NCBI RefSeq assembly: GCF_012844345.1
Contig: NZ_CP051625.1
Location: forward strand, 3,919,234-3,983,233
Direction of reading: 5' to 3'
From: Pseudomonas sp. gcc21
GTDB lineage: Bacteria; Pseudomonadota; Gammaproteobacteria; Pseudomonadales; Pseudomonadaceae
DNA length: 64,000 nt
Both the position numbers and the translations under genes were made by a program. Every line of letters begins with the position of its first letter. The first letter of the stretch is position 1. Under the pieces are notes generated by a model. The model ran no database searches and had not been told where the DNA came from. It saw only the letters and a list, made by a program, of their open reading frames with translations. Shown piece by piece: positions 21,159-33,590 of this stretch.

Positions 21159-21249
21159 GGAGAGGTGTCCGAGTGGCTGAAGGAGCACGCCTGGAAAGTG
21201 TGTATACGTTAATAGCGTATCGAGGGTTCGAATCCCTCTCTCTCCGCCA
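21159..21249 (+). tRNA. tRNA-Ser (anticodon GGA)
   Basis: This 91-nt class II tRNA has acceptor GGAGAGG pairing with TCTCTCC, discriminator G and encoded CCA. The anticodon loop CTGGAAA sits between CACGC and GTGTG, giving anticodon GGA. The long variable arm is followed by the T-arm GAGGG-TTCGAAT-CCCTC. It reads UCC/UCU codons. Serine tRNAs are frequent integration sites, but I found no repeated 3' end in the window. Confidence 0.97.
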
Positions 21250-25425: not shown

Positions 25426-25472
25426 CTCCTGTTACAACGCGTTAGGGCTGCTGACTTCGCGTTGCAGAGGAG
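25426..25472 (-). promoter_or_regulatory. SD-sequestering hairpin in the nrdA leader
   Basis: In the mRNA, CTCCT then CAACGCG (from 25472 downwards) can pair with CGCGTTG and then AGGAG, the nrdA Shine-Dalgarno at 25430-25426. This gives 7 bp plus 5 bp with a small internal loop and a 16-nt apical loop. It directly occludes the ribosome binding site. It is a plausible expression platform for the upstream cobalamin aptamer; the coupling itself is inferred. Confidence 0.7.
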
Positions 25473-25630
25473 AAACCCTGGCCGGAGGACGTATGCAAGA
25501 AAATACCGCGGCGATCAGATCTCCTGCTCGATCCCAGGGGAAGGGCAGGGCGATGCACCGACGATACAAACCATTCGTGGCCAAAGAGTTCTCTGCTTAC
25601 CTTATGGACGCGAAGGCGCAGTACTTTGTC

Positions 25631-25785
25631 CAGGGCAGGTCTTCGGACTCAGGGGCGTGAACCGGTCAGGCTCGGCCTCGCGGGCGACTTCCCGGCGTTA
25701 GCCAGTGTCGTGTTGCCCGCTCGTTCCCCAATACCGCTGCGCGTCAGTTCCGGATTCTCACCGGATTCCCTACTACCAAGGGATC
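25631..25785 (-). promoter_or_regulatory. Cobalamin (B12) riboswitch upstream of nrdAB
   Basis: Read on the minus strand, the segment shows the conserved cobalamin-aptamer blocks in order: TAGGGAATCCGGTGAGAAT, CTGACGCGCAGCGGTA, then ACACTGGCTAACGCCGGGAA as the B12 box, and finally GAGTCCGAAGACCTGCC. This is the same order and nearly the same sequence as the E. coli btuB element. It precedes B12-independent class I nrdAB, so B12 is expected to lower their expression when a B12-dependent reductase can take over. The leader between 25420 and 25630 contains only the SD hairpin and no gene. Confidence 0.93.
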
Positions 25786-25794
25786 TCGTTAATA

Positions 25795-25842
25795 TCTCTA
25801 TATATGGTAGTGCGCCAAGGACATAGGCACTATATACAGCCA
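25795..25842 (-). promoter_or_regulatory. Tandem NrdR-box-like sites
   Basis: Two imperfect copies of the NrdR consensus (ACACwATATATwGTGT) start at 25795 (TCTCTATATATGGTAG) and 25827 (GCACTATATACAGCC). By hand they match at roughly 11-12 of 16 positions. Their starts are 32 bp apart, three helical turns, the spacing usual for NrdR operators. They lie just upstream of the riboswitch, where the nrdAB promoter should be. Confidence 0.6.
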
Positions 25843-26881: not shown

Positions 26882-29158
26882 GTGGCAAAGGCACATAACC
26901 TCGGGTTTCCCCGCCTCGGCACCCGCCGGGAATTGAAGTTCGCGCTTGAAGACTATTGGAGGCAGAACACTACCGCGGATGATTTGCTGACGTCGGCCGC
27001 CGCGCTGCGGGCGCAGAACTGGGAGATCCAGGCAGACCTGGATCTGGTACCGGTAGGCGACTTTTCACTGTACGACCATGTGCTGGACATGAGCTTTACC
27101 CTCGGCCACCTTCCGGAGCGCGTAAGGCAGCTAAAGGGCACCGAGCTGGATCATTATTTCCGCGTTGCACGGGGCCGTTCCCCCGCAGATTGCGGTTGTT
27201 CCGGCGTCGCGGCCGGCGAGATGACCAAGTGGTTCGATACCAACTATCACTATATTGTCCCCGAAGTTTGCGGCGATACCGCTTTCCTGCTCAACAGCCA
27301 ACGGCTGGTGGACCAGATTGCCGAGGCCCGCAGCGCCGGTGTCACACCCAAGCCGGTGATCATCGGCCCGGTCACCTACCTGTGGCTGTGCAAGGCCCGG
27401 AGCGGCTATGACCGATTGCAACTCCTGCAGAACCTCCTTCCCGTGTATGGGCAGCTGCTGGAGCAACTGGCTGATTCAGGCGTGGACTGGGTGCAGGTGG
27501 ATGAACCCATCCTGGTCACTGAGCTGGACGCCGACTGGAAGCTGGCCTTCGAAACCGCCTACCACCATCTGAAAGGTAGCCGCGCGAAATTGCTGCTGAC
27601 CACCTATTTTGGTGTGCTGGGCGAAAATCTACAGCAAGCCTGCAATCTGCCGGTCGCCGGTCTGCATGTGGATGCCGTTCGCGGCCGGCAGGAGGTTAAC
27701 GCGCTGGTCGATTGGCTGCCGTCTCATAAAGTGTTGTCCCTGGGAGTGATCGACGGTCGCAATATCTGGAAGACCGACCTGAATGCTTTGCTGGAGTGGC
27801 TGGCCCCTATTCACGAAAGGCTGGGGGATCGCCTGTGGCTCGCTGCCTCATGTTCATTACTTCATGTTCCGGTAGATCTGGAACTCGAAACCGAACTCGA
27901 CCCGGAAATTCGCAGCTGGCTTGCCTTCGCCGTCCAGAAGCTGGACGAGCTCCGGTTGCTGCGATCCGCCCTCAACCACGGCACCGATGCGGTGGCCGAA
28001 CAACTGGCGGCCAATGCCCGCGCCATCGCCAGCCGGAGGGCTTCCACGCGCGTCCATAACCCGACCGTGAAACAGCAGGTTCAGGCCATCACCTCCGATC
28101 TGGGCGAGCGTCGGAGCCCTTATCCTGTACGGGCCGAGCGACAGGCCGTCGCGCTGCAGCTGCCACGCTACCCGACCACCACCATCGGCTCCTTTCCGCA
28201 AACCACCGATATCCGTAAAGCGCGACTGGCCTACCGTAAACAGGAAATCAGCCACGAACTCTACGTCTCCACCATGAAAGGAGAGATCGAACGTGCGGTG
28301 CGGGAACAGGAGAAGTTGGGGCTTGATGTTCTGGTGCATGGCGAGGCCGAGCGCAACGACATGGTGGAATATTTCGGTGAGCAACTGGAAGGTTATCTGT
28401 TCACCCGTTTTGGCTGGGTACAATCCTACGGCTCGCGCTGCGTCAAACCACCTATCCTGTACGGCGATGTCCAGCGCCCCAGCTCCATGACTCTAGACTG
28501 GACCGTCTACGCCCGCTCTCTCACAGACAAGCCGCTGAAAGGTATGCTCACCGGGCCGGTGACCATACTCAACTGGTCCTTTGTGCGCGACGACCAGCCG
28601 AGGCGCGACACCGCGCTACAGCTAGCCCTGGCAATCCGCCAGGAGGTACTGGATCTCGAAGCCGCCGGCGTCAATGTCATCCAGATTGACGAAGCGGCCC
28701 TGCGCGAGGGGCTGCCCCTGCGACGTTCCCAGTGGCAGGACTATCTGGACTGGACCGTGGACGCCTTTCGCATTACCGCAAACGGCGTCAGGGATACCAC
28801 CCAGATTCACACCCACATGTGCTACTCGGAGTTCAATGACATTATCCGGGACATTGCACGTATGGATGCCGACGTGATCACCATTGAAACCTCCCGTTCC
28901 GCCATGGAGCTGCTCGACGTGTTCGAGGAATTTCACTACCCCAACGAGATTGGCCCTGGGGTCTACGACATCCATACCCCGAACATTCCGACAAAGGAAC
29001 AGATGGTGGCGTTGATGAGCAAAGCGGCGGAACGCATACCGGCCGAACGCCTGTGGGTTAACCCCGATTGCGGCCTGAAGACCCGTCGATGGGAGGAAGT
29101 TCTTCCAGCCTTGGAGAATATGGTCGCGGCTGCGCGGGAATTAAGGGGCATAGCGTGA
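26882..29158 (+). CDS. metE: Cobalamin-independent methionine synthase MetE
   Basis: This 758-residue enzyme transfers the methyl group from 5-methyl-tetrahydropteroyltriglutamate to homocysteine. The zinc-binding residues are in [10 protein letters not shown] and NPDCGLKTR near the C-terminus, with a Glu between them; [10 protein letters not shown] and GPVTILNWS are also family motifs. The start is GTG at 26882, following AACAGGAGCATC. It is probably activated by divergent MetR. The adjacent nrdAB is also a B12-independent isozyme. Confidence 0.95.
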
Positions 29159-29376: not shown

Positions 29377-32300
29377 CTAGCCTGCGGTTAACACTGCCCG
29401 ATGCTTCTTGAAGTTCTCCGCCTGCTCGAATATCTCCTTGTACACCTCATCCTGGGCCACCGGCGGGTAGCCGTGGTCCGCCAACACCAGGATCAGCTCG
29501 ACCTTCAACTCAGCTTTTATGTCTGCCCGCTGATTCCAGTCGGTGTAGCGCACCTTGTCGTCCACCACCTTCTTCACTGCAGTGGCGAGGGTCAGCAGTT
29601 TGTCTTCGGGGTAAGTGAAGTTGTACTGGAAGGCCAGCTTCTTGAGGATGTCGTAGAAGGCTTTTTCCTCAATATCCACTCCGAGGTCGGCATAGGATTG
29701 CTGCTCGTCTTTCAGAGCATGAATCAGGTCTACGAACTCGTTGGTAATGTCGTCCCAGACTTCGCCGACATAGAGCGTATCGTCCTTGCGCTCATTGTAA
29801 TGATCCACCAGCCTGCGAAACTGCTCCGCAAAATCCACGCCCTTGGCCTTGTTGATCTTCCTGAAGTCCTCGATAGCCTTGGCCAGCAGTTGCTGCAATA
29901 GCTTGATGCGCGTATTCGGCAGCTTGATCTTCTCGATCTTCGCCAGATAGTCATCGTCGAAGATATCCATCTCGCCCGCGCCGTCATCGCCCAGCTTGAA
30001 GATTTCCTCCACGCCGTCTGCCTTCAGCGCCTCGGCGACCATCTCGCGCACCCGCGCATTCATCTGCGCGATATCCGGCGCGTTGCCCCTGGTCAGCTTG
30101 AAGACAATGGAGCGCACTGCGAGGTAAAAATGGATCTGGTCGCGCTCGCCCTGGCTGACGCCCTCCGAGCCGCAGCAAATGTCATAGGCCGCCTTCAGGC
30201 GTTTCACCAACGCCATGAAGCGCTTCTCTATCTTGTCGGTGATCTGGGCATACTCCGCCGCCCTATTCAGGCAGTTGAGCTGCTCCAGCGGGCTGCCGGT
30301 GTAGTAGAGGCGGGCGTCGAACTGATGAAACAGCTTGTTGAGCAGATCCAGGTGGTCCTTCACCACGATGATCGACTGGTTGATCTCTTCGATGTTCTGC
30401 TGGTCGGCCTTGTTGTAATGCGCCAGCGCCAGGTTCATCTGCTTCTTGATGCCGATGTAGTCGACTACCAGACCCTTTTCCTTGCCCTGGAACTTGCGGT
30501 TCACTCGGGAGATGGTCTGGATCAGGTTGTGGCGCTGGATCGGCTTGTCGATATACATGGTATCTAGGAAAGGCACGTCGAATCCGGTCAGCCACATGTC
30601 GACGACGATGGCGATCTTGAAGTTGGACTTGGCGTTCTTGAACTGGCGGTCCAGCTCCTTGCGGTATTCCTGCGTGCCGAGCATTTCGTAAAGCGCTTTC
30701 TCATCATCTTTGCCGCGGGTCATGATCATCTTGATCCGCTCCATCGGCTTGATTTCCTTGCGCTCCTGCTCGGTCAGCTCGACGCCTTCCTCGGCCGCCA
30801 GCACCTCATTCCACTCGGGGCGCAGCGCCACCACCTGTTGCCAGAAGGCATAAGCGATCTCGCGCTTGCTGCACACGAACATCGCCTTGCCCTTGAGCGT
30901 TGAGCCTTCTGCCACGCGCTTTTCATAGTGGTGCACAAAGTCGATGGCCAGCGCCTGGATGCGATCCGGGTCGCCGAGGATGGCGCTCATGTTGGCGCTG
31001 GCCTTTTTGCTTTCCTCGATCTGGTATTCGCTGGTGCCGTCTTCGGCACACTGGGCGTAATACGCCTCGATTTCCTTGAGCTTCTCGTTATCCAGCAGCA
31101 CCTTGGCGGCGCGGCCTTCGTAGACGATGCGCACGGTGATCTCGTCCTTCACCGACTCGGTCATAGTGTAGCTATCGACTACCTCGCCGAACACATCCAG
31201 CGTCGCGTCAATCGGCGTACCGGTGAAGCCCACATAGGTGGCATTGGGCAGCGAGTCGTGCAGGTATTTGGCAAAACCGAAGGTGCGCTTAACGCCCTTG
31301 TCGGTCACCCGCACCTTCTGGTCCAGATTTACCTGGCTGCGGTGCGCCTCGTCCGAGATAACGATCACGTTGGTGCGCTCGGTCAGAAGCTCCGTGTCTT
31401 CAGTGAACTTGTGGATGGTGGTCAGGAATACGCCACCGCTGTTGCGGCCCTTGAGCAGTTCACGCAGATGCGCGCGGCTTTCCACGCTGACCACCGTCTG
31501 GTCGCCAATGTAATTCTTGGCGTTGGTGAACTGGCCCGCGAGCTGGTCGTCCAGGTCGGTACGGTCGGTGATCAGCACAATGGTCGGGCTGCCGAACTCC
31601 ACGCTCTTCATCAGCAGACGGGTGAGAAACAGCATGGTGTAACTCTTGCCGCAGCCGGTCGCGCCAAAGTAGGTGCCGCCTTTACCATCGCCCAGCGGCT
31701 TGCGGTGCAGGCGGATGTTCTCGTACAGCCTGTTGGCCGCGTAGAACTGCGGGTAGCGGCAGGCGATTTTCTCCTGCTTGCGGGACACGTCCGGGAAGTA
31801 GATAAAGTGCCGAATCACCGCGCGCAAGCGATCCGGGTGAAACAGCCCCTCGATCATGGTGTGCAGAGCGTTGATGCCATCCTGCTCGATGCTCTCGTCA
31901 CCCGTGACCTTGCGCCAGGTGTAGTAGAAATCGTAAGCCGCGAAGACCGAGCCCATGCGCGAGTTCACCCCGTCGCTGATCACGCAGAGGGCGTTGTATT
32001 TCATCAGCTCGGGAATGGAGCGCACATAGCGCCTGGTCAGCTGTTCCCAGGCTTGAAAAATGGTCGCGTCTTCCCGCACAGCGCTCTTGAACTCGAACAC
32101 CACCAGCGGCAGGCCGTTGATATACAGAATCGCATCGGGGATGCGCTTCTCGGTGCCTTCGATGACGAGCTGATTGACCAGCCGATAGATATTGCCGGTG
32201 TGGTAATCCGCGCGGGGCTCCACGACCAGAGTTTCTACCTCGCCCTCGATCGGCACGCGCTGTTCGGGCAGGCCGCTGTAGTCGATCAGCTGAATGTAGA

Positions 32301-32613
32301 GGTCTTTCTGGCTGTGCTGCGAGTGCTCGCGCTTGAGCAGAAAACCGTCTGCCACGCGCTTGTGAATGGTCTTGTTGGAGTCATACAGATCCAGCGCTGG
32401 CAGGCTGTCTAGCTGCTGGATGACCGATTCGATCTCGCTCGCCGTGATGTTGTCGGCAGCATACTGCGTAGCCAGAAACTGGCGCAGATCATCCTTGATG
32501 AGGACTTCGCTGTTGCTGGCGCGCCGGATGCTGTCGCCAGTGAAGTGCGGATAACCCTGCTGCGCCAGCAAATCGATAATTGCCTGCTCCAGCTTGGCTT
32601 CGTTGAAACTCAT
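29377..32613 (-). CDS. hsdR: Type I restriction enzyme, R subunit (HsdR)
   Basis: This 1,078-residue motor-nuclease has an N-terminal PD-(D/E)xK nuclease domain (DAILYINGLPLVVFEFKSA, about residues 163-181). Helicase motif I is GATGCGKS near 318, motif II ISDEAHRS near 423, and later VGFTGTPID and a QTISRVNR motif VI. It translocates and cleaves DNA lacking the HsdM/S modification. Unusually, it is separated from hsdM and hsdS by about 2.7 kb of toxin-like genes, although all three hsd genes face the same way. Confidence 0.93.
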   Translation of the reverse strand: MSFNEAKLEQAIIDLLAQQGYPHFTGDSIRRASNSEVLIKDDLRQFLATQYAADNITASEIESVIQQLDSLPALDLYDSNKTIHKRVADGFLLKREHSQHSQKDLYIQLIDYSGLPEQRVPIEGEVETLVVEPRADYHTGNIYRLVNQLVIEGTEKRIPDAILYINGLPLVVFEFKSAVREDATIFQAWEQLTRRYVRSIPELMKYNALCVISDGVNSRMGSVFAAYDFYYTWRKVTGDESIEQDGINALHTMIEGLFHPDRLRAVIRHFIYFPDVSRKQEKIACRYPQFYAANRLYENIRLHRKPLGDGKGGTYFGATGCGKSYTMLFLTRLLMKSVEFGSPTIVLITDRTDLDDQLAGQFTNAKNYIGDQTVVSVESRAHLRELLKGRNSGGVFLTTIHKFTEDTELLTERTNVIVISDEAHRSQVNLDQKVRVTDKGVKRTFGFAKYLHDSLPNATYVGFTGTPIDATLDVFGEVVDSYTMTESVKDEITVRIVYEGRAAKVLLDNEKLKEIEAYYAQCAEDGTSEYQIEESKKASANMSAILGDPDRIQALAIDFVHHYEKRVAEGSTLKGKAMFVCSKREIAYAFWQQVVALRPEWNEVLAAEEGVELTEQERKEIKPMERIKMIMTRGKDDEKALYEMLGTQEYRKELDRQFKNAKSNFKIAIVVDMWLTGFDVPFLDTMYIDKPIQRHNLIQTISRVNRKFQGKEKGLVVDYIGIKKQMNLALAHYNKADQQNIEEINQSIIVVKDHLDLLNKLFHQFDARLYYTGSPLEQLNCLNRAAEYAQITDKIEKRFMALVKRLKAAYDICCGSEGVSQGERDQIHFYLAVRSIVFKLTRGNAPDIAQMNARVREMVAEALKADGVEEIFKLGDDGAGEMDIFDDDYLAKIEKIKLPNTRIKLLQQLLAKAIEDFRKINKAKGVDFAEQFRRLVDHYNERKDDTLYVGEVWDDITNEFVDLIHALKDEQQSYADLGVDIEEKAFYDILKKLAFQYNFTYPEDKLLTLATAVKKVVDDKVRYTDWNQRADIKAELKVELILVLADHGYPPVAQDEVYKEIFEQAENFKKHRAVLTAG

Positions 32614-32940: not shown

Positions 32941-33180
32941 ATGGATACCGTTCGCTGGAACGTAGCTGTCTCGGCTGACACGGATCAGTCCCTTCGTATG
33001 TTTCTGGCCAGCCAAGGCGGCGGTCGGAAGGGTGATCTATCTCGTTTCATCGAGGAGGCAGTGCAAGCACACATACTGGAACTGACTGCGGAGCAAGCTA
33101 AGGCCTCGAACTCGCATTTGAGTGAGGCAGAATTGGCCGAGGCGATTGATGAAGCGCTCCAATGGGCACGTGAACGCTGA
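32941..33180 (+). CDS. Ribbon-helix-helix-type antitoxin
   Basis: This 79-residue protein has a short beta-strand then two helices (VRWNVAVSADTDQSLRMFLASQ; KGDLSRFIEEAV), a CopG/RHH-like fold, followed by an acidic C-terminal tail that would clasp the toxin. The stop codon TGA overlaps the ATG of the PIN toxin by one base (TGATG), showing translational coupling. GGGAGAG lies upstream of the start. It should neutralise the neighbouring PIN RNase and repress the pair. Confidence 0.75.
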   Translation: MDTVRWNVAVSADTDQSLRMFLASQGGGRKGDLSRFIEEAVQAHILELTAEQAKASNSHLSEAELAEAIDEALQWARER

Positions 33181-33590
33181 TGCGGGTGGTGTTGGATACA
33201 AATATCCTGTTCAGTGCTCTGATTTCTCCCCACGGCGCACCTGATACGATTTATCGCGCCTGGCGAGCGGCGCGATTCGAGATGGTCACCTCGCAGGCGC
33301 AGCTCGATGAAATCCGTAGAGCAAGCCGCTACCCCAAGCTCCAGAACGTTCTTCAGCCTGCCAAAGTTGGAGCCATGATTAACAATCTGCAGCGAGCAGT
33401 AGTGCTGGAGCGACTGAAAATTGAGGTCGAAGCCACGGATCCAGATGACTCGTTCTTATTGGCCATGGCACTGGCAGGTGAAGCGGATTATCTGGTCACC
33501 GGTGATCGGCGCGCAGGCCTGCTGCAACGTGGGCACATCGAACGCACACGGATTGTCACGCCTGCCGTATTCTGTTTGGAAGTGCTTTAA
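33180..33590 (+). CDS. PIN-domain toxin (putative ribonuclease)
   Basis: This 136-residue PIN-domain protein shows the acidic metal ligands of the nuclease: Asp in VVLDTNILFSAL at the N-terminus, a central Glu near LDEIRRA, the DPDDSFLLAMA block and Asp in LVTGDRRAG. It matches the 'putative toxin-antitoxin system toxin component, PIN family' group. It would cleave RNA when the unstable antitoxin is lost. The operon stands inside the type I restriction locus, opposite to hsd transcription. Confidence 0.8.
   Translation: MRVVLDTNILFSALISPHGAPDTIYRAWRAARFEMVTSQAQLDEIRRASRYPKLQNVLQPAKVGAMINNLQRAVVLERLKIEVEATDPDDSFLLAMALAGEADYLVTGDRRAGLLQRGHIERTRIVTPAVFCLEVL

Follow-up and report, generated by a model that had tools for sequence, protein, structure and literature searches.

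A cobalamin aptamer upstream of nrdAB in a pseudomonad: a proposed RNA relay to the Shine-Dalgarno sequence and signs of horizontal acquisition

Introduction

In Streptomyces, the class I ribonucleotide reductase operon nrdABS is reportedly repressed by B12, a class II enzyme then serving in its place; the system is ascribed to Borovok et al. 2006, the title of which is said to speak of control of transcription. Several further reports describe related arrangements. In P. acnes, the nrdAB promoter has an NrdR box and the operon is preceded by a predicted cobalamin riboswitch; the nrdDG leader is also annotated with one (PMC3848588). In delta-proteobacteria, a B12 element heads nrdDG, which encodes a B12-independent reductase, in genomes with NrdJ (PMC545781). 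Silencing of the B12-independent enzyme under B12 has been proposed both for the delta-proteobacterial nrdDG (PMC545781) and for the P. acnes nrdAB (PMC3848588), and 'Isozymes of B12-dependent enzymes' already form a class of cobalamin regulons (PMC3766115). In the translational riboswitch env8, the P13 loop kisses L5 on ligand binding and translation is repressed (PMC10907184). In P. aeruginosa, NrdR box 1 of nrdAB overlaps the -10 element (PMC4409342), and the effect of B12 is said not to depend on regulation by a B12 riboswitch (PMC5962746, PMC4409342).

Here we describe a leader found in a 64,000-nt stretch of the Pseudomonas sp. gcc21 genome (hereafter, the window). B12 riboswitches on B12-independent reductases are already known, and the leader in the window is a variant of them; what we add is the anatomy between the aptamer and a hairpin in front of nrdA, the NrdR-like boxes that overlap the leader, and a probable horizontal history of the locus. 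Among open-access papers, judged mostly by title and the start of the abstract, we recognised no report of this riboswitch in Marinobacter or Halopseudomonas.

Results

The minus strand of the window carries, in this order, a LysR-family gene (26776-25877), a predicted promoter, a cobalamin aptamer, nrdA and nrdB. The class I large-subunit gene nrdA (25419-22669) contains the ATP cone and the RNR all-alpha and barrel domains, and the small-subunit gene nrdB (22553-21495) shows 87-90% identity to nrdB at six Marinobacter loci; a preliminary description had named the genes downstream of the aptamer in the same way. The LysR-family gene adjoins the divergent metE (26882-29158, plus strand) and is metR by this position. 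Full-length metE matches in the genus are just 57-69% identical, and the metE neighbourhood may therefore be foreign too. The window also contains a type I restriction HsdR-like gene (29377-32613, minus strand) and a short frame that may encode a PIN-domain toxin (33180-33590, plus strand). An island bounded by tRNA-Ser (21159-21249) was considered and rejected: the final 16 nt of the tRNA have a single occurrence in the window, so that a second attachment copy was not seen.

The covariance model RF00174 matched positions 25834-25617 of the minus strand over its complete length (model 1-189), scoring 92.7 bits where the gathering score is 31.5, with an E value of 1e-21; the sole further Rfam match at the gathering threshold within the window was a tRNA. 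This score exceeds those of all five Marinobacter loci run against Rfam (78.4-89.0 bits). The nrdA start lies 197 nt past the Rfam 3' end on the same strand, so that the aptamer is located directly upstream of the operon for the B12-independent reductase. The btuB-like aptamer of the preliminary description is thus present, whereas the interval given for it (25426..25785) begins inside the aptamer and misses the 5' strands of P1 and P2 (from about 25821). Because the -10 element overlaps the Rfam 5' end, the transcribed part of the aptamer probably starts near 25821. Within the aptamer, we located the B12 box region GAGTCCGAAGACCTGCC (25650-25634) and P5/L5, CTG-ACGCG-CAG (25747-25737), the loop of which, ACGCG, complements the CGCGT of L13 described below and would pair with it.

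Twelve leaders of the window's type were compared. Eleven precede nrdA, namely that of the window, six from Marinobacter (L009-L013 and L077) and four from the window's genus (L091-L094); the twelfth precedes nrdD in another genome of the genus (G013). The predicted promoter of the window, TTGCCG-17-TATAGT (25857-25829), agrees with the consensus in 9 of 12 letters, shuffled sequences containing a mean of 0.4 such sites, and TTGnnn-17-TATAGT is present in 12/12 leaders. Two putative NrdR-like boxes flank the start of the aptamer: the core of box 1, CTGTATATAG (25839-25830), overlaps the -10 element, and that of box 2, CCATATATAG (25807-25798), lies 32 bp from it inside P2/L2. This distance corresponds to a 16-bp spacer between 16-bp boxes, which falls within the published range of 14-17 bp (PMC12051234). 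The two cores match the NrdR consensus in 18 of 20 letters; their spacing is helical, and an NrdR gene is present in the genome (234.8 bits). Across all 12 leaders the best pair of cores is 31-32 bp apart and scores 13-18/20 against this consensus, the best frame being shifted in L012 and L077; the best pairs before 10 other reductase leaders score 9-16/20. Identification as NrdR boxes would be strongest in the 7 of 12 leaders that reach 17-18/20, the window included. A strict NrdR-box pattern found no site before nrdJ. Upstream of one nrdJ (L008), two weak NrdR-like cores, CCATATGTGG and CTACAAGTAG, were read by eye 32 bp apart; since weak cores occur there also, NrdR may act on both reductases.

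Immediately before nrdA, the arms CAACGCG/CGCGTTG and TCTCCT/AGGAGA form a hairpin that is both the minimum free energy (MFE) structure and the centroid of 25475-25417 (-19.8 kcal/mol, z -3.26); only 1 of 200 shuffles folds as well. The Shine-Dalgarno (SD) sequence AGGAG (25430-25426) is buried in this hairpin, as had been proposed for it. We designate its 5' arm element C (TCTCCTCTGCAACGCGAAG, 25473-25455) and its 3' arm, which carries the SD, element D (CGCGTTGTAACAGGAGA, 25441-25425). Over the 12 leaders, 91.7% of the C:D pair cells are formed. Both sides have changed in 3 of 7 pairs, which 22 of 500 shuffles reach, and the covariation score is reached by 0 of 500, such shuffles leaving relatedness in place. 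In the window itself C:D is changed on both sides with pairing kept.

A second hairpin, P13 (25621-25593), begins at the 3' end of the aptamer, and 99.1% of its pair cells are paired in the 12 leaders. Its 5' arm is element A (CCTTCGCG, 25616-25609), element B (AAGGTAAGCAG, 25603-25593) closes it with A, and its loop, L13, begins with CGCGT (25612-25608) and complements L5. Element A is complementary to both B and C, and C to both A and D; the segment CGCGAAG of element C (25461-25455) is complementary to A and would pair with it as an antisequestor. All 11 nrdA leaders and the nrdD leader contain the four elements in the same order, with the patterns CTGC-x-CCTTCGCG from the aptamer 3' end (A), AAGG..GCAG (B), ..CGCGAAGG (C) and CGCG....AGGA including the SD (D). 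The A:C pair cells are formed in 97.9% of cases over the 12 leaders. No two-sided change was seen in A:C or P13 across these leaders; support for these two helices comes from conservation and position, and C:D alone covaries. In 10 of the 11 other leaders A:C is uninterrupted over 8-9 bp, a length reached by 1-10 of 1000 shuffles in each case. It is interrupted in L009 (longest run 4, reached by 1000/1000), and in the window, where the helix is one pair shorter through loss, its 7 bp are at chance (73/1000). The match between L5 and L13 consists of CGCG, which is self-complementary, plus one letter; in 7 of the 12 leaders L13 reads CGCGA. Outside the Marinobacter-type leaders no relay is claimed: in eight of the nine other leaders among the 80 loci described below (all but L026), L13 matched the stretch ahead of the SD over 5-7 nt at most, a length that 68-972 of 1000 shuffles also attain.

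The preliminary description had remarked on a gap of 160 nt between aptamer and hairpin. The distance from the Rfam 3' end to the hairpin is 143 nt and includes P13, and because P13/L13 and a conserved antisequestor were found, the gap becomes the spacer of a proposed relay running from aptamer through P13 and antisequestor to sequestor. The spacer proper (25592-25474) is variable in relatives, the distance from B to the core of C ranging from 41 to 239 nt across 11 leaders. In two Marinobacter loci it contains long inverted repeats (L009, 4733-4941; L012, 4820-4910); the two loci share one 15-nt piece, which is part of the L009 repeat. The gap is an elastic spacer, which would tolerate inserted palindromes.

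Folding energies do not settle which state would win. In the window the SD has a mean unpaired probability of 0.02 with P13 forced and 0.27 with A:C forced, and in 11/11 nrdA leaders (the nrdD leader not included) the stretch from SD to ATG is predicted to be cheaper to open in the A:C state. The unpaired probability of the SD in that state is at most 0.49, and it is nearly equal between states in four of the 11 (L012, L013, L091 and L093). Ensemble energies clearly favour A:C in only four (the window, L009, L011 and L012) and P13 in six (L010, L013 and L091-L094), with a tie in L077; because A:C is clearly better in so few, thermodynamics does not predict a ligand-free ON state in most leaders. 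When the window transcript is cut ahead of D, A:C is the better state by 4.8 kcal/mol at full length and by 10.1 kcal/mol for the platform alone. Once D is included, the full-length states lie no more than 1.2 kcal/mol apart at five 3' ends and the platform states differ by -1.0 to +4.3 kcal/mol, so that the MFE or preferred state of the window flips with the 3' end chosen. These values would fit a poised co-transcriptional switch, without proving one. As for intrinsic termination, no terminator-like site was found, a weak result given that shuffles average only 0.5 sites.

The genome is a single contig of 3.98 Mb with three RF00174 matches, the other two of which lie, by position, ahead of TonB-receptor genes resembling btuB; one of these heads a cluster that can be read as late B12 genes. 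NrdJ is encoded (558.5 bits, over the cut-off, with an RNR barrel domain), as is MetH, and no NrdD match was found. Of NrdAB and NrdJ, only NrdJ needs B12. Because CobI/CbiL stays under the cut-off (two pieces of 26-27 bits within one 489-aa frame), the organism probably does not build the corrin ring and probably salvages B12 by uptake. MetH is encoded, yet metE is headed by none of the three RF00174 matches.

To place the leader among relatives, we used 80 nrdA loci of GTDB-representative genomes, which ranked as the best 80 among at least 588 relatives. An aptamer precedes nrdA in 15 of these best 80, comprising six Marinobacter, one Porticoccus MAG, three Bradyrhizobium, one Afipia and four beta-proteobacteria; these 15 were among the sequences on which the search model was built, and their matching is by construction. 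The 11 of the 15 that were run against Rfam (cmscan) all exceeded the RF00174 gathering score. The other 65 gave no aptamer match, including the P. aeruginosa PA7 locus (L027), and at least four of the 65 have less than 500 nt upstream. In the Afipia MAG, a second aptamer match (L081:1418-1563, plus strand, 82.6 bits) precedes the one at nrdA by about 3.2 kb.

Among 37 genomes of the window's genus, this nrdA with its leader occurs in five (G000, G020, G027, G028 and G031). Because the nrdA start of G013 is identical to that of Halopseudomonas pelagia CL-AP6 (L018) over 887/887 nt, we place the genus as Halopseudomonas, in agreement with the earlier view of the host as a pseudomonad. A quick tree was built from 90 NrdA N-termini of no more than 330 residues. 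In it, the five genus proteins join six Marinobacter rows (SH-aLRT 100), and supports of 87-94 place them inside this group; five other members of the genus and H. pelagia group with Pseudomonas. A constraint of genus monophyly was rejected (p-AU 1.7e-41), the group having been named after the tree was seen, and long branches, above all L026, leave some placements unsure. The tree suggests that nrdAB and its leader were horizontally acquired from a Marinobacter-like source, a direction that is suggested rather than fixed. G000 has no second NrdA match, which points to replacement. A different nrdA type (372-391 bits) is present in 19/37 genus genomes, and RF00174 was absent upstream at the five loci of this type that were scanned. 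Apart from the nrdA genes with this leader, six nrdA genes of the genus (L099-L104) have no RF00174 upstream. NrdJ occurs in all seven genus genomes with a riboswitch-headed reductase, yet it exceeds the cut-off in 32/37 overall, and its presence is therefore not discriminating. In G009, a complete single-contig genus genome, the only TIGR02504 match is NrdJ; this genome perhaps lacks a class I NrdA, or the model missed it.

Two further genomes of the genus contain related arrangements. The nrdD gene of G013 (Pfam NRDD, 578.7 bits) follows an aptamer (L106:2321-2527, minus strand) that shares 86% identity with 171 nt of the query, in a leader that also has the promoter, the NrdR-like boxes, P13 and the proposed relay; no RF00174 match lies upstream of this genome's own nrdA. 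Genome G005 also gave a hit, L096, with an E value of 7e-4. In G036, a cobalamin aptamer with a canonical-type L5 (L107:8880-9093, minus strand, 107 bits) is situated between tmRNA and a different, low-scoring nrdA class, and is a second, separate pairing of a B12 riboswitch with nrdA in the genus. The exact L5 signature was found in 5 of 398 family genomes, the same five that carry the leader, and in G013 with one mismatch. Five of 12 signature matches (L108, L109, L110, L112 and L118, two mismatches each) had no aptamer by eye and were rejected as chance.

Discussion

How might the aptamer act on nrdAB? We consider it likely that this RF00174 riboswitch represses NrdAB translation by a three-step RNA relay, that NrdR adds control, and that nrdAB and its leader came from a Marinobacter-like source. 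When coenzyme B12 is bound, L5 would kiss L13 and hold P13 (A:B) closed; element C would then be available to D, the helix between them would bury the SD, NrdAB would not be made, and deoxynucleotides would come from NrdJ. Without B12, A would pair with C, possibly before D is transcribed, and the SD would be easier to open. At the DNA level, NrdR, if it binds the tandem boxes that reach from the promoter into the beginning of the aptamer, probably adds further control. Repression by B12 is what we infer from this arrangement. The RF00174 match, the hairpin over the SD and the B12-dependent reductase NrdJ were each found, and the earlier reading, in which B12 would shut off NrdAB translation so that a B12-dependent enzyme takes over, is supported at the level of sequence.

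Other explanations deserve consideration. Control might be mainly transcriptional, with B12 stopping translation and Rho gaining access to the leader or nrdA, the masked SD being only the trigger. Such a route requires no intrinsic terminator, in keeping with our failure to find one, and in P. acnes much of the nrdAB transcription stops ahead of the first gene (PMC3848588); however, the SD of the window is itself covered by a conserved, covarying hairpin, and we regard this route as unlikely. The coupling of aptamer and SD hairpin might also be simpler, as in the preliminary description, without an antisequestor, A:C being a by-product of CGCG-rich elements. The lack of covariation in A:C, its chance-level length in the window taken alone and its disruption in L009 would agree with this, but 8-9 bp recur at an equal position in 10 of the 11 other leaders, and without A:C no link leads from P13 to the hairpin, which makes the simpler scheme improbable in our judgement.

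The SD hairpin could instead be P13 itself, its loop docking on L5 directly, which is how the studied translational cobalamin riboswitch acts (PMC10907184). We find this scarcely credible here, because the loop of the SD hairpin, AAGTCAGCAGCCCTAA, contains no complement of the L5 ACGCG, and a P13-like hairpin whose loop contains CGCGT already begins at the 3' end of the aptamer. It is also very unlikely that the leader is a decaying remnant without effect in the window's species. The A:C helix that has lost a pair and is by itself at chance, and the 19 of 37 genus genomes with another nrdA type, free of RF00174 upstream at the five scanned, might be taken as signs of decay; against this, C:D has changed on both sides and still pairs, and the aptamer outscores those of five Marinobacter loci. 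The three-step relay is therefore the reading that we retain.

We further speculate, with somewhat less than even confidence, that the leader is a compact mobile cassette with two inputs, NrdR on DNA and B12 on RNA, which has moved between Marinobacter and Halopseudomonas and can head nrdA or nrdD, and that in the window's lineage a riboswitch-controlled nrdAB replaced the native riboswitch-free one. The reductases behind it, nrdA in the window and nrdD in a sister species, are non-homologous. If this were true, about 60 bp would be read twice, as DNA for the dNTP state and as RNA for the B12 state, because one NrdR-like box lies on the -10 element and the other inside P2/L2 of the aptamer. 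The proposed relay suggests how an apparent B12 salvager picks between two routes to DNA precursors according to the B12 supply, and it would be a translational cobalamin riboswitch in which an antisequestor carries the action of P13 over a distance. A natural experiment is on offer in closely related species that have or lack the nrdA switch, together with a similar switch on another reductase class.

With regard to known systems, Streptomyces nrdABS resembles the window in that B12 reportedly represses a class I reductase and a class II enzyme takes over, which for the window is only proposed; it reportedly differs in acting on transcription, to go by the title, whereas the window has an SD sequestor and no terminator-like site. 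P. acnes nrdAB has a single NrdR box and apparent early termination, whereas the window has tandem boxes, one of them in the aptamer, and an SD sequestor; the delta-proteobacterial nrdDG follows a similar logic with a class III enzyme in place of the class I nrdAB. In env8 the RBS lies in the P13 loop, whereas in the window P13 (25621-25593) is about 160 nt from the SD (25430-25426), the RBS is not inside the P13 loop, and an antisequestor is proposed to bridge the distance. P. aeruginosa nrdAB is like the window in that NrdR box 1 is positioned on the -10 element and NrdJ is present.
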